Assembly: GCF_004168035.1 (NCBI RefSeq)
Contig: NZ_SDPU01000008.1
Coordinates: 1 to 59,501, forward strand
Source: Nocardioides iriomotensis
GTDB lineage: Bacteria; Actinomycetota; Actinomycetes; Propionibacteriales; Nocardioidaceae
Reading direction: 5' to 3'
DNA length: 59,501 bases
The notes beneath the pieces are model-generated. The model ran no database searches. It worked only from the letters and a program-made list of their open reading frames with translations, and was not told where the DNA came from. Shown piece after piece: positions 42,743 to 59,501 of the stretch (position 1 is its first letter; every line of letters begins with the position of its first letter). The translations under genes and the position numbers were made by a program.

Positions 42743-42889
42743 TTCGACGGCTGCGCGCCTGTGGCCTGCACGTGGGCTGCGTCTGCCTGAACTTGCTCCC
42801 GTATTCCGCACAGCCACTGGCGTCTGGCCGTTGCCAGCCGACGTCGCTCGGACAGGTGTCACGCATTGGGTCGGGGTGCTGCTGTTCCC

Positions 42890-45856
42890 ATGATGACCCT
42901 GCACAAGCTGCACGCGGGCGACGGCTACACCTATCTCACCCGCCAGGTCGCCGCCGGGGACGAGAGCCGCTCTCACGGCCAACAGCTCGCCGACTACTAC
43001 ACCGCATCCGGGAACCCGCCCGGACGGTGGATGGGCTCCGGTGCCGCCGACCTCGCCGTCGAAGGACGGGTCCGGGAGGACCAGATGCGCTCCCTGTTCG
43101 GCGCCGGCCTGCACCCGGACGCCGAGCAGATCATCGCCCTGGAGACCGCCGCCGGCACCGACCCCGCAATCGCGCGGGCGGCGGCGAAGCTGGGCCGGGC
43201 GTTCCCGAAGTACAAGCCGTTCCCGCCGCGATCGGAGCGGGTCGCTGCGAGGCTGCGGGACTTCGAGGACGAGCACGGCCGCGTCCCTTCGCCGCAGGTG
43301 CGGTCGAAGATCGAGGCTCAGGAAGCCCGTCGTGATCGCCGTGCCGTGGCCGGCTACGACCTGGTCTTCACCCCGGTGAAGTCCGCGTCGCTGCTGTGGG
43401 CACTCGGCTCAACCTCGACGCGTGAGGCCGTGGAGGCTGCGCACCATGAGGCGGTCGCCGACACCCTCGCGTGGCTTGAACGCGAGACCGCGTTCGCCCG
43501 AACGGGTGATCGGGGCGAGGCGCAGATCGAGACGCGCGGCTTCCTCGCCACCGCCTTCGACCACCGAGACTCCCGGGCCGGCGACCCCGACCTGCACACC
43601 CATCTGGCGATCTCGAACAAGGTCCGTGCCCGCGAGGACCATGCCGACGGCAGCCCGCGCTGGCTGTCCCTGGACGCCCGGGTCATCCACGCCGCCGCGG
43701 TTGCGGCCTCGGAGCGTTACAACACGCGCTTCGAGGACGGCCTGTCCCGCCGGCTCGGTGTCGCGTTCACCCAGCGGCCGGACAGCGTCCGCGACGACAA
43801 ACGCCCCATCCGCGAGATCACCGGAGTCCCGGTCGGGCTACTCAAGCACTTCTCCAAACGCCGGGCGGCGATCGAGGACCGCTACCGCACCCTGCACCGC
43901 GACTACCGCAGCACCCACGGCCACGAACCGGATGCCAGCGCCCAGCTCAAGCTCGCCCAACAAGCCACCCTCGAGACCCGCGACGGCAAGGCGCCGCCGA
44001 AGGCGCTTGCGGAGAAGCTCGCCGACTGGCGCACAGAAGCCACGACTGTCCTCGCCGACCGGACGGTCCGCGACGTCGAGTCCCAGGCGCTCGGGCGCGA
44101 CATCGCGACTCCACCACCAGACGACCTGCAGGCGGTTGCAGAGGCGGTCGTCGCGACTGTGAGTATGGAAAAGGCGACCTGGACCCGATGGAACATCACC
44201 GCTGAGACCGAACGCCAACTCCGCCCGTTTCGGTTCAGCACACCCGCCGACCGTGAAGCCGCCACTGCCGCCGTCATTAGAGCCTCCCTGCACCCCGACT
44301 CCGCAGTCCAGCTAACGGCTGACGGCACTGAACGCACCCTCGAAGCTGTCGCCCAGACCGATCCGCCGCGACGATCGAACGGTGAGTCCGTCCTGGTCGA
44401 GCACGGCTCCGCCCGCTACACCACCCAAGACCTCCTTGACGCCGAGCAACGCCTTCTCGATCACGCACACACGCCGACCCGGCACGGGATCAACAGTGGG
44501 CGGTTGCTCGAGTTCATCGCCGGATTCGAGGCCCGCTATAACCTCCGCCTCGACCGCGGCCAACGCGCCCTCGTCCTCGGTTTCGCCGCCGACCCCCGCC
44601 GTCTCGTCGTCGGGATCGGTCCCGCCGGGGCCGGGAAGACCACTGCCATGCGCGCCGTCGCCGAGGCCTGGCGCACCACCGGCAGACGCGTCATCCCCCT
44701 TGCACCCTCCGCCACCGCGGCGGAGGTCCTCGGCGACGAGCTCGGCTGCCGCGCTGAGAACCTGCACAAGTTCCACCACACCCACGCCAGTGACCAGTCT
44801 TCAACCGCCAGCCGTGACCCGTGGTTCGCGCTGCAGCCCGGCGACCTGATCCTCGTCGACGAAGCCGGCATGGCAAGCACACGGCACCTCGACTGGCTCA
44901 CCACCTACGCTCGCGAACGCGGTGCCATCGTCCGCCTCCTCGGCGACCCCGCCCAGCTCAACGCCGTCGAGGCCGGCGGCATGCTCCGCCTCCTCGCCCA
45001 CGACACGGACGCCGTCGAGCTCTCCGACCTGCACCGCTTCACCGACCCCGACGAAGCCATCGCCACCCTCGCCATTCGCAACGGCGACCCGACCGCCATC
45101 GACTACTACGCCCGCCACGCACGCCTCACGAGTGGAAGCCCAACCACTCTCCTCGACGCCGCCTACGAAGGCTGGGCCACCGACACCGCCAACGGACACA
45201 CCAGCCTGCTCATCGCCGGCACCAAGGCCGACGTCACCAAACTCAACCGCCGCGCCCGCGCCGAACGAATCCACAGCGGCGATGTCGAGCCCGACGGCGT
45301 CAGGCTCCACGACGGCACAACCGCCGGCAACGGAGATCTCATCATCACCCGCCACAACGACAGAAGCCTCACGAGCCGCGCAGGCACCCGGTTTGTCCGC
45401 AACGGTGACACCTGGCGCGTCACCCACCGCCACCAGAATGGCGACATCACCGCCCGGCACACCACAAACGGAGCAGACGTAAGACTCCCGCACCACTACG
45501 TGAACTCTCACGTCGACCTTGGCTACGCCACCACCACCGCCCAAGCCCAAGGCCGCACCGTTGACACGACCCACGCCATCATCGATACCACCACCGATCG
45601 CGCTCAGCTCTACGTCGCCGCAACCCGGGCCCGCCACCACACCCAGCTCTACGTTCCAACGTGTAGCGAACTCGGACTCGACGCAGATCAGCCACCCGCT
45701 GTCCCGAAGGAGGTCACCGAACAACTCGCCCAGACCATCACCCGCGACGCCAACGAACTCACCGCAACCGAAATCCAACGGCAGACCGGTCATCGGCAGC
45801 GCACTCAAGCCACCCCTCGATCTCGGACTCCTGCGTTCCATGGCCTCCAGGCATAG
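42890..45856 (+). CDS. MobF family (TrwC/TraA-like) conjugative relaxase-helicase
   Basis: 988 residues from ATG 42890, with a second ATG directly after. The N-terminal relaxase domain shows ADYYT (candidate nicking tyrosines), LVFTPVKSASLLWALGS and the histidine triad DPDLHTHLAISNKV near residue 240. The C-terminal RecD-like helicase has Walker A GIGPAGAGKTTAMRAV, Walker B LILVDEAGMAS, GDPAQLNAVEAGGM and motif VI YVAATRARHHTQLYV. It would nick the transfer origin and unwind element DNA. Complete MobF proteins of actinobacterial elements are often longer, so the C-terminus may be shortened. The gene starts 148 bases from the tRNA-Tyr scar. Confidence 0.88.
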   Translation: MMTLHKLHAGDGYTYLTRQVAAGDESRSHGQQLADYYTASGNPPGRWMGSGAADLAVEGRVREDQMRSLFGAGLHPDAEQIIALETAAGTDPAIARAAAKLGRAFPKYKPFPPRSERVAARLRDFEDEHGRVPSPQVRSKIEAQEARRDRRAVAGYDLVFTPVKSASLLWALGSTSTREAVEAAHHEAVADTLAWLERETAFARTGDRGEAQIETRGFLATAFDHRDSRAGDPDLHTHLAISNKVRAREDHADGSPRWLSLDARVIHAAAVAASERYNTRFEDGLSRRLGVAFTQRPDSVRDDKRPIREITGVPVGLLKHFSKRRAAIEDRYRTLHRDYRSTHGHEPDASAQLKLAQQATLETRDGKAPPKALAEKLADWRTEATTVLADRTVRDVESQALGRDIATPPPDDLQAVAEAVVATVSMEKATWTRWNITAETERQLRPFRFSTPADREAATAAVIRASLHPDSAVQLTADGTERTLEAVAQTDPPRRSNGESVLVEHGSARYTTQDLLDAEQRLLDHAHTPTRHGINSGRLLEFIAGFEARYNLRLDRGQRALVLGFAADPRRLVVGIGPAGAGKTTAMRAVAEAWRTTGRRVIPLAPSATAAEVLGDELGCRAENLHKFHHTHASDQSSTASRDPWFALQPGDLILVDEAGMASTRHLDWLTTYARERGAIVRLLGDPAQLNAVEAGGMLRLLAHDTDAVELSDLHRFTDPDEAIATLAIRNGDPTAIDYYARHARLTSGSPTTLLDAAYEGWATDTANGHTSLLIAGTKADVTKLNRRARAERIHSGDVEPDGVRLHDGTTAGNGDLIITRHNDRSLTSRAGTRFVRNGDTWRVTHRHQNGDITARHTTNGADVRLPHHYVNSHVDLGYATTTAQAQGRTVDTTHAIIDTTTDRAQLYVAATRARHHTQLYVPTCSELGLDADQPPAVPKEVTEQLAQTITRDANELTATEIQRQTGHRQRTQATPRSRTPAFHGLQA

Positions 45857-46051
45857 CGGATCGCTCCATGAACGTTCTCACAGGCCAATCCCAGAACGCG
45901 GTGGAAAAATCCGCCAACGGTTCAGCCTTGCAGGTGTGGCTACGGTCCTGCCTCCCAGGTGTCGCTGCTGACCTCGGACTAGGTCCGACCGGTCATACCC
46001 CGTCCAGGATTGCCGACGGCACAAGAGCCGTCCTCCTGCTTGACCCTGCCT

Positions 46052-48919: not shown

Positions 48920-49819
48920 TCATGCCCCGGTGCGGATCCACTCGGTGGTCGAAATCTGGCCGCCCAGGCGGCCGGGGCCTCGGTCGAAGTGCAGCACTAA
49001 CAGACTGCCGTTCTGGAGCCTGGAGATCCGACGCCGCAAGTCCGTCTTCCCCGCTCCGAGCTCGTCGGTCAGCCGGGCCAGCAGACTCGCCTCGGCACAT
49101 ACCACCGCCGGCACGCCTTCTTGCGCCACCTCTAGCAACTGATCGACCGCGACTCGGGCCCGTGGGCCGGTGTCTCGGACAACCAGCACGGACTCGTGCT
49201 TGACGTCGATGACCTGCTCGAAGGGGCGCAGAGTCTCAGTACATCGAAGCGCCTCGGCGACGAGCGCCCGTTGAACCCCGAACGCCTGGATCAGCTCCCC
49301 CAACGCCTTCGCCTGCTCTCGACCGCCCAGCGAGCGGCGGTGGTTCTTAGCCGACCCATCCTCGCTGCTGACGCCCACGGGCGGCACGAGCAGGAGCGGC
49401 CGCGTCTGAAAAGCGTTCACACGACGGAATCGCGCAATGACGGGAAGGTCGCGTCGGCGCGTCAGTCGAGCAGCGTCCCGGAGCGACACCCAGGTCAGAT
49501 CATCAATCTCGGCACTCGGGGTGAACCGACCATCGACCGCGCTCATGGACCAGTAGCGAACCCGCTTCGGTTGGCCGCCCTTGAGGTAGCTGGTCGTCCC
49601 GAGAGCCGGACCGAGCGAGGCGCGAAAGCCGGTTTCCTCGCGGACCTCGCGTAGGGCCGCGATGACGGGATGCTCGCCAGCGTGCAGTTTCCCCTTCGGG
49701 AGTGACCAACCCTCCTTGTTGGGCCGGTGGACGAGCACAACTTCGACGCCCCTTCGCGAGTCCGTCATGCGCCAAAGCACACCGCCCGCGGCCTCGATCC
49801 GGGCGACGTCACCTGCCAT
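48920..49819 (-). CDS. MutT1-like NUDIX hydrolase with degenerate histidine-phosphatase domain
   Basis: 299 residues from ATG 49819; GTG 49834 is an alternative. The NUDIX box is complete: GKLHAGEHPVIAALREVREE followed by TGF. The second half aligns with the phosphoglycerate-mutase-type domain of mycobacterial MutT1, but the RHG motif expected after the linker reads LLLVPPVG, so the catalytic histidine is missing. The NUDIX half should hydrolyse a nucleoside diphosphate-linked substrate such as 8-oxo-dGTP. The second half is probably non-catalytic or has a new role. Confidence 0.78.
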   Translation of the reverse strand: MAGDVARIEAAGGVLWRMTDSRRGVEVVLVHRPNKEGWSLPKGKLHAGEHPVIAALREVREETGFRASLGPALGTTSYLKGGQPKRVRYWSMSAVDGRFTPSAEIDDLTWVSLRDAARLTRRRDLPVIARFRRVNAFQTRPLLLVPPVGVSSEDGSAKNHRRSLGGREQAKALGELIQAFGVQRALVAEALRCTETLRPFEQVIDVKHESVLVVRDTGPRARVAVDQLLEVAQEGVPAVVCAEASLLARLTDELGAGKTDLRRRISRLQNGSLLVLHFDRGPGRLGGQISTTEWIRTGA

Positions 49820-49955
49820 GTCCAGTATTTGCACCCGTCAAAGTGTCTGCGCCACGTCGACCCTGCGAACGGGGGATGAACGCAACGAACCACGTCGACA
49901 CGGCCCCGGAAAGCATGCCTCCGTCGCGGCATCGCCCTGGTCGTACCCTCACGCA

Positions 49956-50651: not shown

Positions 50652-53600
50652 GTGCCTGACGCCGACGTCGGCGCGCTCGGCCTCGAGCCGGCCCTGCTGC
50701 GGTCCGAGCGCGCTGCTCCACCTCGAACGCTGGTCGACATCTTTCGCGACGTCGTGCAGGCCCACCCGTCCAGTCGCGCGCTCGACAACGGTGCCGAGGT
50801 GCTCACGTACGCCGAGTTCGAGGAAGCCGCCGATGAGGTGGCCGACAGCCTCCGCACCTTCGGGGTCGGCCGCGGGGACCGCGTCGGCGTCCGCATCAAG
50901 TCCGGCACACTCGACCTGTACGTCGGGATCATGGGGATCCTGCTCGCCGGAGCCGCCTATGTGCCGGTGGACGCGGACGACCCCGACGAACGGGCCCGCT
51001 TGATCTTCGACGAGGCAGACGTTGCCGCGATCCTCGGGAACGGCCTGCGCGTCACGCCGCGACGTCACGATCGGCACGCGTCGACCTCTTCGCCCGTGTC
51101 GCCGTCCGACGACGCCTGGATCATCTTCACCTCGGGCTCGACCGGGACCCCCAAAGGCGTCGCGGTGTCGCACCGATCGGCGGCGGCGTTCGTCGATGCC
51201 GAGTCGAGGATATTCCTGCAGGGCGCGGCGCTCGGTCCAGAAGACCGGGTCATGGCTGGCCTGTCCGTCGCGTTCGACGCGTCGTGCGAGGAGATGTGGC
51301 TGGCCTGGGGGCACGGTGGCTGCCTCGTTCCCGCGCCCAGGTCGCTGGTGCGCAGTGGCGTGGATGTCGGGCCGTGGATCGTCGCGAACGACATCACCGT
51401 GGTCTCCACCGTTCCGACGCTGGTGTCGCTGTGGCCGACCGAGGCGCTCGCCCGGGTGCGGCTGCTCATCATGGGCGGCGAGGCCTGTCCTCCCGAGATC
51501 GGTGCGCGACTTGCGCTTCCCGGCCGTGAGGTGTGGAACACCTACGGCCCCACGGAGGCCACGGTCGTGGCGTGCGGGGCTGAGATCAGCCGTGACGGTC
51601 CCGTGCGGATCGGCCTTCCGCTGGACGGTTGGGACCTCGCGGTCGTCGACGCGGACGGCGTGCCTGTTTCGGCCGGCCAACCTGGCGAGCTGATCATCGG
51701 TGGAGTCGGCCTCGCCCGCTACCTGGACCCTGCCAAGGAAGCCGAGAAGTATGCGCCGATGCCGACGCTCGGCTGGGACCGCGCTTACCGCAGCGGCGAC
51801 ATCGTGCGCTTCGACGGCACCGGGCTGGTGTTCGCCGGACGCGCCGACGACCAGATCAAGCTCGGCGGACGCCGGATCGAGCTGGGTGAGATCGACAGTG
51901 CCCTGCTCGGCCTCCCGGGCGTCGCGGGCGCCGCGGCCGCCGTGCGCACCAGCCAGGCCGGCAACCAGATCCTCATCGGCTACATCAACGTCAGCGAGGA
52001 CTTCGACACGACCGCCGCCACGGAGCAGCTGCGCCGGGACCTTCCCGCCGCCCTCGTTCCCCGGCTCGCACAGGTAGACCAGCTCCCCACGCGGACGAGT
52101 GGGAAGATCGACCGGGAAGCGCTCCCGTGGCCGCTGCCCGGCGCCGGCGACGCGGGCGTGGCCGATGTCGCGGCTGACCTCACCGACACCGAGCGCCACG
52201 TCGCGGATCTCTGGCTCGAGGTGCTGGGCGCGGTTGTCCGGAGCAGCAAGGACGACTTCTTCGACCTGGGCGGCGGAAGTCTCACCGCGGCCCAGCTGGT
52301 GTCGCGGCTCCGGGCATCGCACCCGGACATCACGGTGGCCGACGTCTACGAGCAACCCAGCGTCAAGCGCCTGGCCGACCTCCTCGATACGATGGACACC
52401 CCCGTCGCGGCGACGAACCGCAGGGTCCGTCCGACGCCGTGGAAGACCCAGATGGGTCAGGTGGTGTTCACGGTGCCGCTCCGCCTCCTGTCCGGACTGC
52501 GCTGGGCGACGTGGGTCCTGGCCGGGAGCAACGTCGCCGCAGCCGCGGGCGCGACGTGGGCGCCGACGACTCCGTGGGCCTGGCTTGTCGCGGGCTGGGT
52601 CCTCCTGGTCCTCGCCCCCGGGCGCATGGCACTCAGTGCCCTGGGGGCGCGGATCCTCATGCACGGGATCCGGCCCGGCGACTACCCCCGCGGGGGCCGC
52701 ATCCACCTCCGGGTCTGGCTCGCGGAGCGGCTGGCGGACGAGCTGGGTGCGGCCAACCTCGCCGGTGCCGCGTGGATGCCGTGGTACGCCCGGGCGCTCG
52801 GCGCCAAGGTCGGCCGCGACGTCGACCTGCACTCGCTCCCACCGGTCACGGGGATGCTCACGCTCGGCCGGGGCTGCTCGATCGAGCCAGAGGTCGACCT
52901 GGCCGGTTACTGGGTCGACGGTGACGTGCTGCGGATCGGCCACGTCAAGGTGGGAGCCGGTGCGCGGGTCGGCACGAGGAGCACCCTGGGCCCCGGCGCC
53001 ACCCTCGGCCGGGGGTCGGAGGTCGCACCGGGCTCGGCCGTCCTCGGCAGGGTTCCCAAGCATGCGTTCTGGTCCGGCTCGCCGGCCGAGCCGGTCACGC
53101 GTACGGCGCGTGGCCCGTGGTCAGCGAAGCGGCCCCGCCGCATGCCCCGGTGGACGATCGCCTACGCGCTGCTGGGCCTGGCTGTGTCTCTGCTGCCGGT
53201 CGTGGCCGGCGCCGTCGCGGCTCTGGTGCTGTGGCGCCCGGTGGTCGGTGCATCGTCCTTGCGCGATGCCTGGCTCGCCGGGCTCGCGTGGTCGCCCGTC
53301 GCGGTCGTCGCCGCGTACACCGCGCTGGCCGTGCTCGTGCTGGCCACGGTGCGGTTGCTGTCCCTCGGGCTCGGGCCCGGCCACTTTCCGATCCACAGCC
53401 GTCCCGCGTGGCAGGCCTGGGGCACGATGCGGGTGCTCGACGAGGCGCGGACCTGGCTCTTCCCGATCTACGCCAGCGCGCTCACACCCGGCTGGCTCCG
53501 CGCCCTCGGCGCCCGGATCGGCAAGCACGTCGAGGCGTCGACGGTGCTGCTCATCCCCAGGCTCACCTCGGTCTCCGACCAGTCCTTCCTCGCGGACGAC

Positions 53601-54557
53601 ACCTTGATCGGCAGCTACGAGCTCGGCGGCGGGTGGCTGCGCGTCGAGCGAGTCAAGATCGGCAAGCGCGCCTTCGTCGGGAACTCCGGGATGGCGGCAC
53701 CCGGCCGCAAGGTGCCGAAGCGTGCCCTCGTCGCCGTGCTCTCCGCTGCACCGCGGCGCAAGTCCGCCAAGGCCGGCGCCTCCTGGCTCGGCAGCCCGCC
53801 CGTACCACTGCGCCGCTCCGCCGGAGGCATCGACGCCAGCCGCACCTACCAGCCGGCTCGCCACCTGCAGGTTGCGCGGGCCTGCGTGGAGCTGTGCCGC
53901 GTGGTGCCCATGGTGGTCGGGGCCGCGATCGGCTGGAGTGTGGTCGCCGCGATCCTCGTCATCGCCGACGCCCTCGACTCGGCGGTCGCAGCCGCCCTCT
54001 CCGGCGTCGTGCTGATGGCTGCGGGCGCGGTCGCCGCCGCTGTCACCGTGCTGGCCAAGTGGGTGCTGGTGGGTCGCATCGCGGCGACGGACCACCCGCT
54101 CTGGAGCTCGTTCGTCTGGCGCAACGAGCTCGTCGACAACTTCGTCGAGGTCGTCGCGGCCCCGTGGTTCGCGCGGGCGGCGTCGGGAACCCCGGTCCTC
54201 AACTTCTGGCTGCGTCTCCTCGGCGTCAAGGTCGGTCGCGGCGTGTGGTGTGAGACCTACTGGCTGCCGGAGTCCGACCAGGTGCGGCTGGCGGACGGAG
54301 CCACCGTCAACAGAGGCTGTGTCGTGCAGACGCACCTGTTCCACGACCGTGTGCTCAGCATCGATGCGGTGACCCTGCACGAGGGCGCCACCCTCGGAGC
54401 CAACAGCGTGATCCTCCCGGCCTCGAGCCTCGGTCGTCACGCTACGGTGGGCCCCGTGTCGTTGGTGATGAGAGGCGAGTCCGTGCCGGACAAGACTCGC
54501 TGGATGGGCAACCCCATCGGCCCCTGGGTGGACGAGCCCGGTCGTAGCGACGCATGA
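50652..54557 (+). CDS. Pls/PosA-family non-ribosomal peptide synthetase (epsilon-poly-lysine synthetase-like)
   Basis: 1301 residues from GTG 50652 with GGGAG upstream; characterised Pls proteins are about 1300 residues. Adenylation domain: IIFTSGSTGTPKGVAVSH, YGPTEATV, TSGKIDRE. Hand-aligned to GrsA, the pocket reads D-A-E-S-I-G-T-V-V-K, close to lysine codes. The carrier domain DFFDLGGGSLTAAQL has Ser543 for phosphopantetheine. The C-terminal 700 residues contain three left-handed beta-helix/acyltransferase-like modules separated by three pairs of membrane helices (six in total), the Pls layout for iterative isopeptide bond formation. The stop overlaps the M1 peptidase start by 4 bases. Confidence 0.85.
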   Translation: MPDADVGALGLEPALLRSERAAPPRTLVDIFRDVVQAHPSSRALDNGAEVLTYAEFEEAADEVADSLRTFGVGRGDRVGVRIKSGTLDLYVGIMGILLAGAAYVPVDADDPDERARLIFDEADVAAILGNGLRVTPRRHDRHASTSSPVSPSDDAWIIFTSGSTGTPKGVAVSHRSAAAFVDAESRIFLQGAALGPEDRVMAGLSVAFDASCEEMWLAWGHGGCLVPAPRSLVRSGVDVGPWIVANDITVVSTVPTLVSLWPTEALARVRLLIMGGEACPPEIGARLALPGREVWNTYGPTEATVVACGAEISRDGPVRIGLPLDGWDLAVVDADGVPVSAGQPGELIIGGVGLARYLDPAKEAEKYAPMPTLGWDRAYRSGDIVRFDGTGLVFAGRADDQIKLGGRRIELGEIDSALLGLPGVAGAAAAVRTSQAGNQILIGYINVSEDFDTTAATEQLRRDLPAALVPRLAQVDQLPTRTSGKIDREALPWPLPGAGDAGVADVAADLTDTERHVADLWLEVLGAVVRSSKDDFFDLGGGSLTAAQLVSRLRASHPDITVADVYEQPSVKRLADLLDTMDTPVAATNRRVRPTPWKTQMGQVVFTVPLRLLSGLRWATWVLAGSNVAAAAGATWAPTTPWAWLVAGWVLLVLAPGRMALSALGARILMHGIRPGDYPRGGRIHLRVWLAERLADELGAANLAGAAWMPWYARALGAKVGRDVDLHSLPPVTGMLTLGRGCSIEPEVDLAGYWVDGDVLRIGHVKVGAGARVGTRSTLGPGATLGRGSEVAPGSAVLGRVPKHAFWSGSPAEPVTRTARGPWSAKRPRRMPRWTIAYALLGLAVSLLPVVAGAVAALVLWRPVVGASSLRDAWLAGLAWSPVAVVAAYTALAVLVLATVRLLSLGLGPGHFPIHSRPAWQAWGTMRVLDEARTWLFPIYASALTPGWLRALGARIGKHVEASTVLLIPRLTSVSDQSFLADDTLIGSYELGGGWLRVERVKIGKRAFVGNSGMAAPGRKVPKRALVAVLSAAPRRKSAKAGASWLGSPPVPLRRSAGGIDASRTYQPARHLQVARACVELCRVVPMVVGAAIGWSVVAAILVIADALDSAVAAALSGVVLMAAGAVAAAVTVLAKWVLVGRIAATDHPLWSSFVWRNELVDNFVEVVAAPWFARAASGTPVLNFWLRLLGVKVGRGVWCETYWLPESDQVRLADGATVNRGCVVQTHLFHDRVLSIDAVTLHEGATLGANSVILPASSLGRHATVGPVSLVMRGESVPDKTRWMGNPIGPWVDEPGRSDA

Positions 54558-55867
54558 CGTTCGGCACCTCCGGCGCCGATCCCTACGTCACGGCCCACGG
54601 CGACACTTCCTACGGCGTCGACCACTACGACCTCGCCCTGACGTACGCCGTCCGTGGGAACCGGCTGAACGCCCGCGCGACCCTCACGGTGCGAGCCGTC
54701 GAGACGATCCAGCGCGTCGAGCTGGACCTGCACCACCTGCACGTCGAGAAGGTGCTCGTCGACGACACACCGGCGCGCTACTCCCACAAACGGGGTCGGC
54801 TCTCCGTCCGGCTGCTGGAGGAGCTGGCCGCGGGCGACACCGCGGAGGTGGCGGTGATGTACTCCGGCAGCCCCAAGCCGGTGCGCAAGCGACACCACGG
54901 CACCGCCGGCTGGGAGGAGCTCACGGACGGGGTGATCGTCGCCGGGCAGCCGCACGGCGCGCCGTCATGGTTCCCCTGCAACGACCGGCCGAGCGACAAG
55001 GCCTCGTACTCGCTGGAGATCACGACCGGGAGTGACTACGTCGTCGTGGCCAACGGCGAGCTGACCTCGACGAACCCCCATGGCCGAACGACGACCTGGA
55101 CCTACCAGCAGCCCGAGCCGATGGCGCCGTACCTGGCGACCGTCCAGATCGGCAAGTACGAGGTGCACGACCTCGACGCGGACGTCCCCACCCGGATCGT
55201 GGCGCCCGCTCGGCTCCGCGACCAGCTGGACGACGCCTTCGGTCGGCAGGCCGAGATGATCGAGATGTTCCAGGAGCTGTTCGGCCCGTACCCGTTCGCG
55301 GGGTACGCCGTGGTCGTCACGGAAGACGACCTGGAGATCCCGCTCGAGTCGCAGAGCCTGTCGACGTTCGGCGCCAACCTGGTGCGCGGCGACTGGGAGG
55401 CCGTCCGGCTGGTGGCGCACGAGCTCAGCCACCAGTGGTTCGGAAACAGCCTCACCGCGGAGACGTGGCAGGACATCTGGCTGCACGAGGGATTCGCCTG
55501 CTACAGCGAGTGGCTGTGGTCCGAGGCGTCCGGCGGGCCGACCGCGCAGGAGCGTGCCGAGGAGCACTGGACCCGGCTCTCCGGTCTCGCCCAGGACCTG
55601 CTGCTCGCCGACCCGGGGCCGGACCTGATGTTCGACGACCGGGTCTACAAGCGCGGAGCCCTGTGCCTGCACGCCCTGCGCTGCACGATCGGCGACAACG
55701 CCTTCTTCGACATGCTCCGAGGATGGGCGGCCGAGCAGCGGTACGGCACCGTGACCACCGAGGGCTTCATCGCCTTCGTGGCGACACGGTGCGACGCGGA
55801 CCTCGACCCGCTCTTCCAGGCGTGGCTGCACGAGGAAGCCCTTCCGGACCTGCCGTCACCACGGTGA
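54554..55867 (+). CDS. M1 family zinc metallo-aminopeptidase
   Basis: 437 residues from ATG 54554. The zinc site HELSHQWFGN begins at His289 and the third ligand is in WLHEGFACYSEWLW about 19 residues later. The N-terminal beta domain has WFPCNDRPSDKASYSLEI. The usual GAMEN exopeptidase motif is replaced by LESQSLSTFG, as in some short M1 enzymes. No signal peptide is visible. Its 4-base overlap with the synthetase implies a joint role. M1-type zinc aminopeptidases degrade epsilon-poly-lysine in Streptomyces albulus, so product trimming or self-protection is likely. Confidence 0.88.
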   Translation: MTFGTSGADPYVTAHGDTSYGVDHYDLALTYAVRGNRLNARATLTVRAVETIQRVELDLHHLHVEKVLVDDTPARYSHKRGRLSVRLLEELAAGDTAEVAVMYSGSPKPVRKRHHGTAGWEELTDGVIVAGQPHGAPSWFPCNDRPSDKASYSLEITTGSDYVVVANGELTSTNPHGRTTTWTYQQPEPMAPYLATVQIGKYEVHDLDADVPTRIVAPARLRDQLDDAFGRQAEMIEMFQELFGPYPFAGYAVVVTEDDLEIPLESQSLSTFGANLVRGDWEAVRLVAHELSHQWFGNSLTAETWQDIWLHEGFACYSEWLWSEASGGPTAQERAEEHWTRLSGLAQDLLLADPGPDLMFDDRVYKRGALCLHALRCTIGDNAFFDMLRGWAAEQRYGTVTTEGFIAFVATRCDADLDPLFQAWLHEEALPDLPSPR

Positions 55868-56453
55868 CGCGTGGCCTGGCCGGGGAGGCAACCGCCACGC
55901 AACCGACGAGCCCCGCGGGGACCAGCTCGTCGTCGAGGTCAGCGAGCCTGATCCCGACAGCCGACCGAACCCCGACGAGCACGCGTGGCGGCGCGTCCGC
56001 GCTCGACAGCCGGACATCCCGCGGGTCGGCGTCGAGCCCGGTGCCGACGGCCTTGAGGTAGGCCTCCTTACGCGCCCACACGACTGCGCGGTCACGCTCG
56101 GACTGCGGTGCCGACTCGAGAGCATGCAGGACCACGTCGTCGAACCCGGCGAACCCGGCGCGACGCGGGCTCTCGAGATCGAGGCCAACCCCGGCCGCGT
56201 CGGACACCGCCACGCCGGTGGTGCCGTCGCACCGCGAGATGCTCACCGAGAACCGGTCCTCCTCGCCATCGATCCTCAGGGAGGGACGGCCGTGGTCGTC
56301 GCCGCCGCAGCGAGGACATGTTCGTTTGACGCTCACGCCGGTCACCGGTCGTCCGAGCAGCGTCAGGCACACGGCGGCGAGGAGAGGTATGTCGTCGTGG
56401 CCGTGGCCGAGTGCCACGACGACGTGGGGCGAGCTCCCGGTCAGCGTGCCCAC
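55767..56453 (-). CDS. 4'-phosphopantetheinyl transferase (Sfp-type)
   Basis: 228 residues from GTG 56453. The N-terminal CPRCGGDDHGRPSL, the magnesium-binding GVGLDLES and the catalytic WARKEAYLKAVGTGLD are the Sfp-family signatures. It activates carrier domains by attaching phosphopantetheine, and the adjacent synthetase with Ser543 is the obvious client. The frame stays open into the convergent peptidase gene, giving a 101-base tail overlap (55767-55867). Its start overlaps the CYTH-CHAD stop by 13 bases, so the two are co-transcribed. Confidence 0.82.
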   Translation of the reverse strand: MGTLTGSSPHVVVALGHGHDDIPLLAAVCLTLLGRPVTGVSVKRTCPRCGGDDHGRPSLRIDGEEDRFSVSISRCDGTTGVAVSDAAGVGLDLESPRRAGFAGFDDVVLHALESAPQSERDRAVVWARKEAYLKAVGTGLDADPRDVRLSSADAPPRVLVGVRSAVGIRLADLDDELVPAGLVGCVAVASPARPRVTVVTAGPEGLPRAATPGRAGRGPRRTVSPRRR

Positions 56454-57937
56454 TTCCTGATCCTCGAGACCTCGGCCTGCTTCCACGCGCGTCCGAGTCC
56501 ACGCACGACGGATGCGGCGGCCTGCTCCTCCACCACGTCGACGCGACCCAGCACGAACGCCACTCGCCCGGCCGGGTCCGTTTGGGCGGCGATCACGCGC
56601 AGGGCGGTGCGGGTCATCGCCACGTCCTGGTGCTCCCCGACGTACGACTGGAACGCCTTCATCTCCCGGGCGGATCGACGCGCCGGCTTTCCGTAGACGG
56701 GACGGCACGCCTCCGCCAGGTATCGCACTCGTTTCGCGGCCTTGCGCGCCTCGTGCAGACGCTCGACGTAGTCGGGATCGGCGGGATCGCCGAGCCGGCG
56801 CAGCCGCTTCTCGAGCCGCGCGACGTCCCGGTCGACGATTCCGGGCAGCACCCTCTTGGTCGGCTTGGCTGCGCGCTTCCGGAACGACGGTTCCTCGGCG
56901 TACCCGCGCAAGGCGGCGAGGAGCTCGAGGTAGCGCTGTGACTCCATGGCGACGACGGCGGCGCGGTGTGCCTCGCGGTAGCGGCGTGTCATCTCCCGCT
57001 GGACCGCGCGTGCAGCGGCGGGAGCCCCGGACTCGTCGGACTGATCGGCGAGGAGACCCTTCAGGCGTGCGCTCACGACCTCGGCGTCGCGGGCCGCGCC
57101 GAGGCAGTCGGCGAGCCACTTGAGCTCGCCGCGGAACCACTGCACCTCGCTCGGGTCGAGAAGCGGCTCGAAGGAGGCGAGCAGCTGCCGGATCCGCCGG
57201 ATCGTCACGCGGAGGCGGTGCACGCCATCGGGCAGGTTGCGTCGAACGGAGATGTCGCGGGCGGGGATCGCGTCGACCAGCGTGGCCAGCCTCTCCCGGA
57301 CGAGGTTCGCCGCCGGACTCTTGCGACCGACCTTGTGGACAGGCCGTTCGGGCCTTTCCCTCACCCCTGTCCCCACGACGCGCTCCAGCTTGCTGCCCAC
57401 CTTGGATCGACGCGCGCCCGCGTCACGCAACCGAGCGGCGACCGCGGCGAGTAGTCGTTCGTCGCCCGTGCCGAGCTCGACTTCCCACTCACGCCACGCC
57501 AGGTCCCCGGCGGTCACCTGATCGTCCACCACCTCCGCGAGGACGGAGCCGTCCAGGTCGAGCACGTGGACGCTGCGGCGGACCGTCTCGATGACCGCGA
57601 TCGGCGTCAGCGTCGAACCTTGCGTGTACGCGAGGACCGCGGAGCGCAGTTCTTTCGGTACGGTCCGGATCCCGCGCGACAGGGGGACGCGCACCTCGAG
57701 CCGGCGGTCACGCCCCATCGGCAGCTTCAGGTGCCAGCCCTCGTCACCCCCGCCCTCCCTGCGCCTCAACGAGATACCGGCCGTGCGCAGATCCAGGTCG
57801 TGGGTGTCGAAGTACACCGCCGTCAGCTCGGTGATGCCGGTGTCGTGCACCGTGGCGGCTGCGTCCGGCAGCTCGTCGAGTGCCGGCAGGTCCCCGGTCG
57901 CGTCGTACTTCTGCTCGATCTCGAGGACGTGCGTCAT
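56441..57937 (-). CDS. CYTH-CHAD domain protein
   Basis: 498 residues from ATG 57937. The N-terminal CYTH (triphosphate tunnel) domain starts VLEIEQKYDA, with the ExExK motif, and has YFDTHDLDLRTAGISLRRRE and WHLKLPMG. The C-terminal CHAD domain, from about residue 215, has the conserved histidines and basic helices DGVHRLRVTIRRIRQLLASF and YVERLHEARKAAKRVRYLAEA. CYTH proteins bind or hydrolyse triphosphates, and CHAD domains bind inorganic polyphosphate. It is the first gene of the unit that includes the phosphopantetheinyl transferase. Confidence 0.9.
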   Translation of the reverse strand: MTHVLEIEQKYDATGDLPALDELPDAAATVHDTGITELTAVYFDTHDLDLRTAGISLRRREGGGDEGWHLKLPMGRDRRLEVRVPLSRGIRTVPKELRSAVLAYTQGSTLTPIAVIETVRRSVHVLDLDGSVLAEVVDDQVTAGDLAWREWEVELGTGDERLLAAVAARLRDAGARRSKVGSKLERVVGTGVRERPERPVHKVGRKSPAANLVRERLATLVDAIPARDISVRRNLPDGVHRLRVTIRRIRQLLASFEPLLDPSEVQWFRGELKWLADCLGAARDAEVVSARLKGLLADQSDESGAPAAARAVQREMTRRYREAHRAAVVAMESQRYLELLAALRGYAEEPSFRKRAAKPTKRVLPGIVDRDVARLEKRLRRLGDPADPDYVERLHEARKAAKRVRYLAEACRPVYGKPARRSAREMKAFQSYVGEHQDVAMTRTALRVIAAQTDPAGRVAFVLGRVDVVEEQAAASVVRGLGRAWKQAEVSRIRKWAR

Positions 57938-58234: not shown

Positions 58235-59501
58235 TCACTCCCAGGGACCGGTGATCGCGAACGTGTAGCCATCTCCCTGGATACAGGCGAACAGAACCTT
58301 GCCGTTCTCGGTGAAGGTCGGTCCGGCGAACTCGCTGCCGCTGACGTCGTTGCGGGCCAGCGGGAAGGCCTTGCCTGCCGTGGTGATGCCGACGAGGTGC
58401 TGGATGCCCTCGCCGTCCTCCGCGAGGATCAAACCACCATTGGGGTCGAGACAGATGTTGTCCGGGCCGTCGTAGTCGGCATCCACCTCCGGGTCCGGGT
58501 TCACACCGAAGATGCTCTTGAGCTTGACCGTCTCGGACAGCGGGTCGTAGAACCACACCTGGCCGTCGTGCTCGTTCCTGCTGCCGTCGCTCGTCCGGGC
58601 GAAGCTGGCGACGAAGTACGCCCCACCATCACTCCAGTAGGCACCCTCGAGCTTCCGGCTGCCAGTCACCTCGCCGGTCGCAAACTGCTTGCGCACCGAC
58701 GTCGTCGCCGCCAGCCGGTCCGGCACGTCCACCCAAGTGACCTTGTACGTCGTGCCGACCTGGGTCGCCTCCGACAGGTCCGCGATCGCCCGTCCGCCCT
58801 TGGTGCACAGCATGGCCTGCAGGGTGCCTGCGGTGTCGCCGCCCTCCGAGAGGGCGAGCGTCCGCAGCGCTCCCTTGCCCGGCTTGAAGCCGGCCGGCGG
58901 GGTCCAGCGGTAGTAGAGGCCGTGCGGGCCGTTGGCGTCCTCGGTGAGGTAGATCGTGCCGTCCGGGTCGACGGCGACCGCTTCGTGGGAGTAGCGGCCG
59001 AGGAACTTCAGGGGCACCGGGTGCTGGTTGGCCGGCCGGTCGAAGGCGTCGACCTCGAAGGTCCAGCCGTGGTCCTCGAGGAACTGGCCGCCCTTGCGCT
59101 GCTCGGTCTCCTCGCAGGACAGCCAGGTGCCCCAGGGGGTCTTGCCGCCGGCGCAGTTGTTGTGGGTGCCGGCCAGGCTGACGTACTCCGAGAGGCGGTT
59201 GCCTTTCTTGTCCATGACGATCGTCGTCGTACCACCGCGGGCGCCGGGGTCGAAGGTGAGACCGGGAAGAGCAGGAACGCCGTACGTCTCGTCGCCGCCG
59301 ATCTCGTGGTTCTGCACCAAGGTCCAGCCATCGCGGCGCTCGAACACCGCCGCGCCGTCCGGGTCGCTCGGCGAGGGCTCGCCCGTGTCGAGGAGCGTCT
59401 CCCCGGCCTTGGCCAGGACCCGGTAGGAGAACCCGGGCGGCAGGGACAGGATCCCGGCGGGGTCGGACACCAGCGCGCCGTACCCCGCAGAGCGGCGGGT
59501 G
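58235..59501 (-). CDS. PhoX family alkaline phosphatase-like protein (5' end outside window)
   Basis: At least 421 residues; the frame stays open to the right edge, so the N-terminus, probably a Tat signal as in PhoX, is missing. Family features visible are GYGALVSDPAGILSLPPGFSY, LVQNHEIGGDET, THNNCAGGKTPWGTWLSCEE (the PhoX/DUF839 segment contributing the metal-binding Cys/Glu) and DGPDNICLDPNGGLILAEDG. PhoX enzymes are Fe/Ca phosphomonoesterases at the cell surface. A phosphate role near polyphosphate-linked CYTH-CHAD is suggestive only. Confidence 0.85.
   Translation of the reverse strand, partial: TRRSAGYGALVSDPAGILSLPPGFSYRVLAKAGETLLDTGEPSPSDPDGAAVFERRDGWTLVQNHEIGGDETYGVPALPGLTFDPGARGGTTTIVMDKKGNRLSEYVSLAGTHNNCAGGKTPWGTWLSCEETEQRKGGQFLEDHGWTFEVDAFDRPANQHPVPLKFLGRYSHEAVAVDPDGTIYLTEDANGPHGLYYRWTPPAGFKPGKGALRTLALSEGGDTAGTLQAMLCTKGGRAIADLSEATQVGTTYKVTWVDVPDRLAATTSVRKQFATGEVTGSRKLEGAYWSDGGAYFVASFARTSDGSRNEHDGQVWFYDPLSETVKLKSIFGVNPDPEVDADYDGPDNICLDPNGGLILAEDGEGIQHLVGITTAGKAFPLARNDVSGSEFAGPTFTENGKVLFACIQGDGYTFAITGPWE

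Follow-up and report, generated by a model that had tools for sequence, protein, structure and literature searches.

A predicted epsilon-poly-L-lysine locus in Nocardioides iriomotensis with facing genes for a phosphopantetheinyl transferase and a CYTH-CHAD protein

What could join a synthetase of a cationic polymer, a peptidase, a 4'-phosphopantetheinyl transferase (PPTase) and a polyphosphate-binding protein in one locus? The question is raised by four genes at positions 50652-57937 of a stretch of Nocardioides iriomotensis DNA (assembly GCF_004168035.1, contig NZ_SDPU01000008.1, positions 1 to 59,501 of the forward strand). We refer to the whole 59,501-nucleotide stretch as the window and to its genome as G000. 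An original prediction, made from the sequence alone, had placed four such genes at this position and linked all of them to one polymer. Each gene was found there with its own profile matches, and the domain scores together with conservation in other genomes rule out a chance call of the four-gene locus. The link to one polymer is supported by the recurrence of the partners beside the synthetase gene, pls. The Nocardioides-like identity that had also been suggested holds at family level: G000 shares family f1 with G227, whose Pls equals that of Nocardioides lianchengensis, but belongs to another genus group (g1 rather than g7). Overall, the best explanation is that this is probably a locus for the antimicrobial polymer epsilon-poly-L-lysine (epsilon-PL), the product being predicted. 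The genes and domains are as follows.

50652..54557, plus strand: pls, predicted epsilon-PL synthetase, 1301 amino acids (TIGR02353, likeness to 7wew and the DAESIGTVVK code)
50742..52124, plus strand: adenylation domain, residues 31-491 (PF00501 at residues 31-356, AMP-binding_C at residues 413-485, DltA-type matches up to residue 491)
52200..52385, plus strand: carrier (thiolation) domain, residues 517-578, with GGGS at residue 540 (PF00550, 42.6 bits)
52458..54518, plus strand: membrane and tandem C1-C3 region, residues 603-1289 (TIGR02353, hydrophobic segments)
54554..55867, plus strand: M1-family metallopeptidase, 437 amino acids, PldII-like by position and family (PF01433, 90.5 bits; PF17900, 56.9 bits)
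55767..56453, minus strand: Sfp-type PPTase, 228 amino acids, GTG start (PF01648, 34.2 bits; cut-off 25)
56441..57937, minus strand: CYTH-CHAD protein, 498 amino acids, ExExK motif at residue 6 (PF05235, 181 bits; PF01928, 57.7 bits)

The first gene had been described as a Pls-sized nonribosomal peptide synthetase with adenylation and thiolation domains, six membrane helices and C-terminal modules, and this description holds. In addition to the PF00501 and PF00550 matches, the TIGR02353 match scored 701.7 bits over residues 603-1289 (cut-off 423.1). Six hydrophobic 19-residue segments start at residues 604, 645, 841, 882, 1087 and 1116 of the C-terminal part, the first of them weak (mean 1.14). 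No condensation or thioesterase domain was among the Pfam matches of the protein. The synthetase thus has the make-up of the Pls/PosA family, that is, adenylation and thiolation domains, a TIGR02353 region and six segments without classical condensation or thioesterase domains. A phylogenetic placement far from Pls/PosA enzymes had been named in advance as a way in which the original prediction could fail. The synthetase is instead close to a solved epsilon-poly-L-lysine synthase, 7wew from Streptomyces albulus, which is its best match among solved proteins, with 613 bits and 61% identity over the 492 aligned columns of the adenylation domain. From the alignment, the pocket residues of the window synthetase are D209, A210, E213, S252, I273, G275, T297, V305, V306 and K485. 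The resulting 10-residue code, DAESIGTVVK, is identical in 7wew, whose residues were read from its alignment.

The same code is common to 168 of 173 Pls rows. The remaining five are one fragment that lacks those columns (L059) and four distant synthetases (L052, L098, L102, L142) with the codes DFEYLGTVTK (two), DFECLSVVSK and DFECLSAVTK. Because the pocket code equals that of 7wew, lysine is very probably the monomer used by the window synthetase. Position 2 of the code has been tied to the substrate, with Ala for lysine, Met for ornithine and Phe for shorter diamino acids (PMC10522769; papers are cited by PMC number). Two further kinds of synthetase gene were seen. The second-type synthetases of L106, L109 and L143 are split, with the adenylation and TIGR02353 portions in separate reading frames, and at G538:C53:110608-112662 a TIGR02353 match of 603 bits contains one internal TGA.

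To place the partners of pls, we compared 205 distinct loci scoring above 900 bits, of which the 197 above 1700 are the canonical Pls loci. This sample is non-random. Loci L032-L061 and L075-L146 were hand-chosen among pls genomes, L147-L226 are the best 80 of 593 confirmed Pls matches, L227-L233 were included for CHAD near pls (L233 is the same as L156, hence six extra loci) and L234-L266 are other Nocardioidaceae. PPTase, M1 and CHAD genes in the loci were called with profiles from the window proteins at E <= 1e-4, a level at which strongly diverged copies could escape detection.

The M1 gene had been said to overlap the synthetase gene by 4 bases, and indeed its ATG sits within the pls stop, with 4 nucleotides shared. 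The window therefore has the pls-pldII type of operon, with a metallopeptidase gene (PF01433/PF17900) directly 3' of pls and translationally coupled to it. The zinc site of the protein, HELSH-x18-E at residue 289, fits the HEXXH-x18-E pattern. An M1 gene lies downstream of pls, within 1 kb and on the same strand, in 192 of the 197 canonical loci; the exceptions are L060, L092, L094 (M1 at 2.2 kb), L095 and L115. In S. albulus, pls and pldII overlap by 4 bp and form a single operon (PMC4361855). Repression of pldII shifted the chain length of epsilon-PL, and the gene was called important for self-protection (PMC9223678). As a separate observation, M1 is displaced by 0.6-2.2 kb from pls in L094, L179, L182, L185 (Tsukamurella-type), L171 and L186.

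Sfp-type PPTases carry GxDxE-like and WxxKEAxxKA motifs and are distinct from AcpS. The window protein has GVGLDLES and WARKEAYLKA at these places and is of the Sfp type. Its gene lies tail-to-tail with the M1 gene, with an overlap of 101 nucleotides, and starts at a GTG after GAGGATCAGGAA, overlapping the last 13 nucleotides of the CYTH-CHAD gene. Both genes are on the minus strand, so the claim that an Sfp-type PPTase and a CYTH-CHAD protein face pls and M1 was borne out. A genome-wide profile search of the window genome found two PF01648 places only, the second being a 169-residue frame of AcpS size. Of the canonical loci, 194 have 1.9 kb or more of sequence beyond pls; in 68 of these a PPTase gene follows just after M1, tail-to-tail with M1 in 66 and on the same strand in two (L228 and L263, of which L263 is weak). 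Without the six loci fetched for nearby CHAD the count is 62 of 188. In L054 the PPTase is upstream of pls instead. Besides those of Nocardioidaceae, loci with a linked PPTase come from families f2, f6, f21, f31, f34, f36, f41 and f42, and named genera with such loci include Aeromicrobium, Kocuria, Arthrobacter, Microbacterium, Agreia and Plantibacter. Linked PPTases were not detected in the examined Kribbella-type (f3), Streptomyces-type (f20) or f7 pls loci. Directly beyond the PPTase a MutT1-like gene was seen in L124, L145 and L205, an arrangement that most loci do not have.

The fourth protein has both CYTH and CHAD domains as well as ExExK. To see how often such proteins are found near pls, we used the 133 of 341 Nocardioidaceae genomes in which TIGR02353 matched at E <= 1e-100 (131 above the cut-off) and sought PF05235 in all 133, in batches of 18, 80 and 35. 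CHAD is carried by 70 of them, at 84 places in total; the window genome has one further CHAD gene, on a different contig. Ten of the 133 genomes have CHAD no more than 6 kb from pls. Under a uniform model 0.23 to 0.36 such neighbours (about 0.3) would be expected, which gives a Poisson P < 1e-11 with loci taken as independent, and P is still about 1e-5 when only five of the ten loci are counted as independent. Among the 39 same-contig CHAD-pls pairs, nine are 1.95-3.9 kb apart and the next is at 272 kb. Because no same-contig distance falls between 3.9 kb and 272 kb, the data indicate adjacency rather than a regional trend. The other 45 of the 84 CHAD places are on a contig other than that of pls; G004 is among them and was resolved via L139. 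Co-occurrence in related genomes, which had been set as a check on the original prediction, was thus found for the M1, PPTase and CHAD genes, each at its own frequency.

The link between CHAD and pls is a minority feature and, within the sample, is found in one family only. A general link across Actinobacteria was considered and rejected, there being none in 62 pls genomes outside Nocardioidaceae (a set without the Streptomyces-type f18 and f20 genomes and without part of f7). We also rejected the idea of a PPTase and CYTH-CHAD pair independent of pls, since the unlinked CYTH-CHAD genes of L135, L136 and L137 had no PPTase detected nearby.

The ten loci show four arrangements, with CHAD downstream and convergent, directly upstream on one strand with pls, upstream and divergent, or farther upstream on one strand with pls. 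CYTH-CHAD and PPTase genes are downstream and convergent in the window, G576 and G713, with the PPTase start over the CYTH-CHAD stop by 13 nucleotides in the window and 4 in the other two. CHAD is on the same downstream convergent side, with intervening genes, in G518 and G581. In G516, CHAD and pls are on the same strand, 10 nucleotides apart, followed after a 4-nucleotide overlap by M1 and then by a convergent PPTase. In G545 (L228) all four genes form a one-strand run: CYTH-CHAD, a gap of 33 to 216 nucleotides depending on the pls start, pls, a 4-nucleotide overlap, M1, another 4-nucleotide overlap and PPTase. CHAD is upstream of and divergent from pls in G003 and G717. In G004, where pls is split over two contigs (L139, L059), CHAD has the orientation of pls and lies 5.6 kb ahead of it. 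Five of the linked proteins are CYTH-CHAD (the window, L228, L229, L230 and L231, the L229 CYTH match of 19.6 bits being below the Pfam cut-off) and five are CHAD alone (L050, L139, L227, L232 and L233); CHAD, not CYTH, is therefore the common part.

On a Pls tree of 65 rows, made by a quick search, 62 rows were scored (L051, L082 and L266 have cut flanks), and the CHAD-linked state requires 7 changes on these. The window, G576, G004, G003 and G717 form a 6-row clade together with a single unlinked row. Two rows from outside the family, L117 and L129, are placed within Nocardioidaceae, which suggests that pls was likely transferred between families; the 7 changes are for this reason not 7 proven gains. 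On a 15-row tree of CHAD domains, the window groups with G576 (54% identity) and G003 groups with G717.

Carrier domains require a PPTase, and at this locus the enzyme would quite probably put phosphopantetheine onto the Pls carrier domain. Pls would then adenylate and tether L-lysine, and its C-terminal tandem membrane domains would add lysines singly via the epsilon-amino group, with the polymer exiting the cell. By analogy with PldII, the M1 enzyme would quite probably shorten or degrade the polymer and so shield the producer. Polyphosphate is the known ligand of CHAD domains, about half of which carry an N-terminal TTM (CYTH) domain, a known short-chain polyphosphatase (PMC6537752). We infer that the CHAD protein is likely to be functionally linked to the locus, most likely through handling of polyphosphate, the natural counter-ion of the polycation. 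More tentatively, the role may be one of charge management, in which the basic pore of CHAD would bind polyphosphate and prevent mutual trapping with the nascent polycation; in a variant of this idea, CHAD would position polyphosphate at the synthetase. Charge management is our first choice because a polyphosphate-binding domain is common to all ten loci and no polyphosphate kinase was found among 20 neighbour proteins tested.

Several results weigh against this account of the locus. M1 aminopeptidases are expected to have a GxMEN-type exopeptidase motif, which was not found in the M1 protein by a short-pattern search, where a stretch reads ...DDLEIPLESQ. It is possible that the protein has a variant motif. 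Because the pattern was not found, we keep the assignment to the M1 family and not to an aminopeptidase mode. No PPTase is downstream in 126 of the 194 canonical loci, and the PPTase matches are modest (34.2 bits in the window and 20.8 bits, below the cut-off, in L231). CHAD is not near pls in 123 of the 133 pls-bearing Nocardioidaceae genomes nor in any of the 62 outside the family, 50 of which have CHAD elsewhere (65 places); CHAD is therefore dispensable. The linked CHADs form no subfamily of their own on the 15-row tree, where all 500 shuffles were equally clustered. Neither polyphosphate kinase nor exopolyphosphatase was among the 20 neighbour proteins tested from 7 CHAD-linked loci. Lastly, the synthetase gene could be a silent one, like that of Corynebacterium variabile, which natively made no detectable epsilon-PL (PMC8117764).

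The main rival to charge management is energy supply. CHAD or CYTH-CHAD might hold polyphosphate near the synthetase for regeneration of ATP or phosphate, or might couple production to phosphate status; we consider this somewhat unlikely. Such a role fits with the higher epsilon-PL output of S. albulus given a polyphosphate-kinase ATP-regeneration system (PMC10012588), and two sets of neighbouring genes, short PhoX genes near pls and the phosphoesterase-type genes of L228, could be read the same way. Two genes noted in the flanks of the locus in the window are as follows.

58235..59470, minus strand: short PhoX-family protein, upstream of CYTH-CHAD, its membership in the locus uncertain (PF05787, 226.3 bits)
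48920-49834, minus strand: MutT1-like protein (NUDIX and histidine-phosphatase match), upstream of pls

Of 80 Nocardioidaceae genomes with pls, 4 (G000, G545, G548 and G581) have a short PhoX gene no farther than about 7 kb from it; about 0.27 were expected from the 79 PhoX places in the 80 genomes. Outside the window, these genes are at 1450-2844 in L228 and 2797-4179 in L230, and there is one in L254; three of the four genomes also have CYTH-CHAD beside pls. The L228 neighbourhood contains a GDPD gene and a calcineurin-like phosphoesterase gene as well. The lack of a polyphosphate kinase among the 20 neighbours speaks against energy supply, as does a PHO-box-like pattern that was not enriched in the window, with 6 matches versus 5.06 expected; a PHO box ahead of pls is likewise not supported by these numbers. 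Apart from this, strong skews (GC skew -0.228, AT skew 0.216) mark positions 44001-46000 of the window, where a long frame spans 42866-45856.

That CHAD came to lie beside pls through chance or regional clustering, with no relation to the polymer, is improbable. Ten neighbours were observed against about 0.3 expected, and this has to be set against the minority status of the link, the mixed subfamilies of the linked CHADs and a lack of full independence, five of the loci being in the 6-row Pls clade described above. Unrelated genes do lie in between at L139, L227 and L230, whereas at other loci the gene junctions overlap or are 10 nucleotides apart, and the gap between 3.9 kb and 272 kb speaks against a broad regional effect. 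Very unlikely is a different cationic homopolymer (of ornithine, beta-lysine or diaminobutyrate), for although pocket codes can mislead and the product is predicted from sequence, the code equals that of 7wew, its Ala at position 2 is tied to lysine (PMC10522769) and the distant synthetases of the sample carry the DFE-type codes instead.

Compared with known systems, the window resembles pls-pldII of S. albulus in synthetase architecture, 7wew-type lysine code and a peptidase gene directly downstream with a 4-nucleotide overlap (PMC4361855), and it adds a facing PPTase gene that overlaps a CYTH-CHAD gene. Neither PPTase nor CHAD was detected in the fetched flanks of Streptomyces-type (f20) pls loci. 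Corynebacterium variabile also has a pls-peptidase operon, and its synthetase gave epsilon-PL in S. coelicolor; the Results section of that account mentions no PPTase or CHAD partner (PMC8117764). PosA, the delta-poly-L-ornithine synthetase, is of the same family, with the pocket D-M-E-H-N-G-T-V-S-K versus D-A-E-S-I-G-T-V-V-K in the window (PMC10522769). The CYTH-CHAD protein shares its domain architecture and ExExK motif with CYTH-CHAD/CHAD "phosin" proteins of the E. coli YgiF type; the CHAD modules described there partner polyphosphate enzymes, whereas that of the window adjoins an epsilon-PL synthetase (PMC6537752). The pls-peptidase core has thus been published (PMC8117764; PMC4361855). 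We found no report of a PPTase linked to an epsilon-PL synthetase in the literature searched, nor of a link between CHAD and such a synthetase in the open-licence literature searched.

A more far-reaching idea, and a rather improbable one, is that some Nocardioidaceae have a paired-polymer system in which epsilon-PL and polyphosphate would be mutual counter-ions. With similarly slight probability, the pair might take the form of, for instance, a mixed nitrogen-phosphate store or a coacervate with CHAD as organiser, and just as doubtfully the M1 peptidase might free lysine from it while CYTH/PhoX-type enzymes free phosphate. No report of a bacterial poly-L-lysine/polyphosphate coacervate was found in the open-licence literature searched.

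The biological purpose of epsilon-PL has been described as unclear (PMC9606270), and CHAD proteins have been described as still lacking a defined physiological role (PMC6537752). With a recurrent, at times operonic, pairing of pls and CHAD, both questions could be addressed by one knock-out. The linked PPTase would be a practical aid for expressing such synthetases, and loci of the G545 type, with four genes in one run, would be natural test cassettes.

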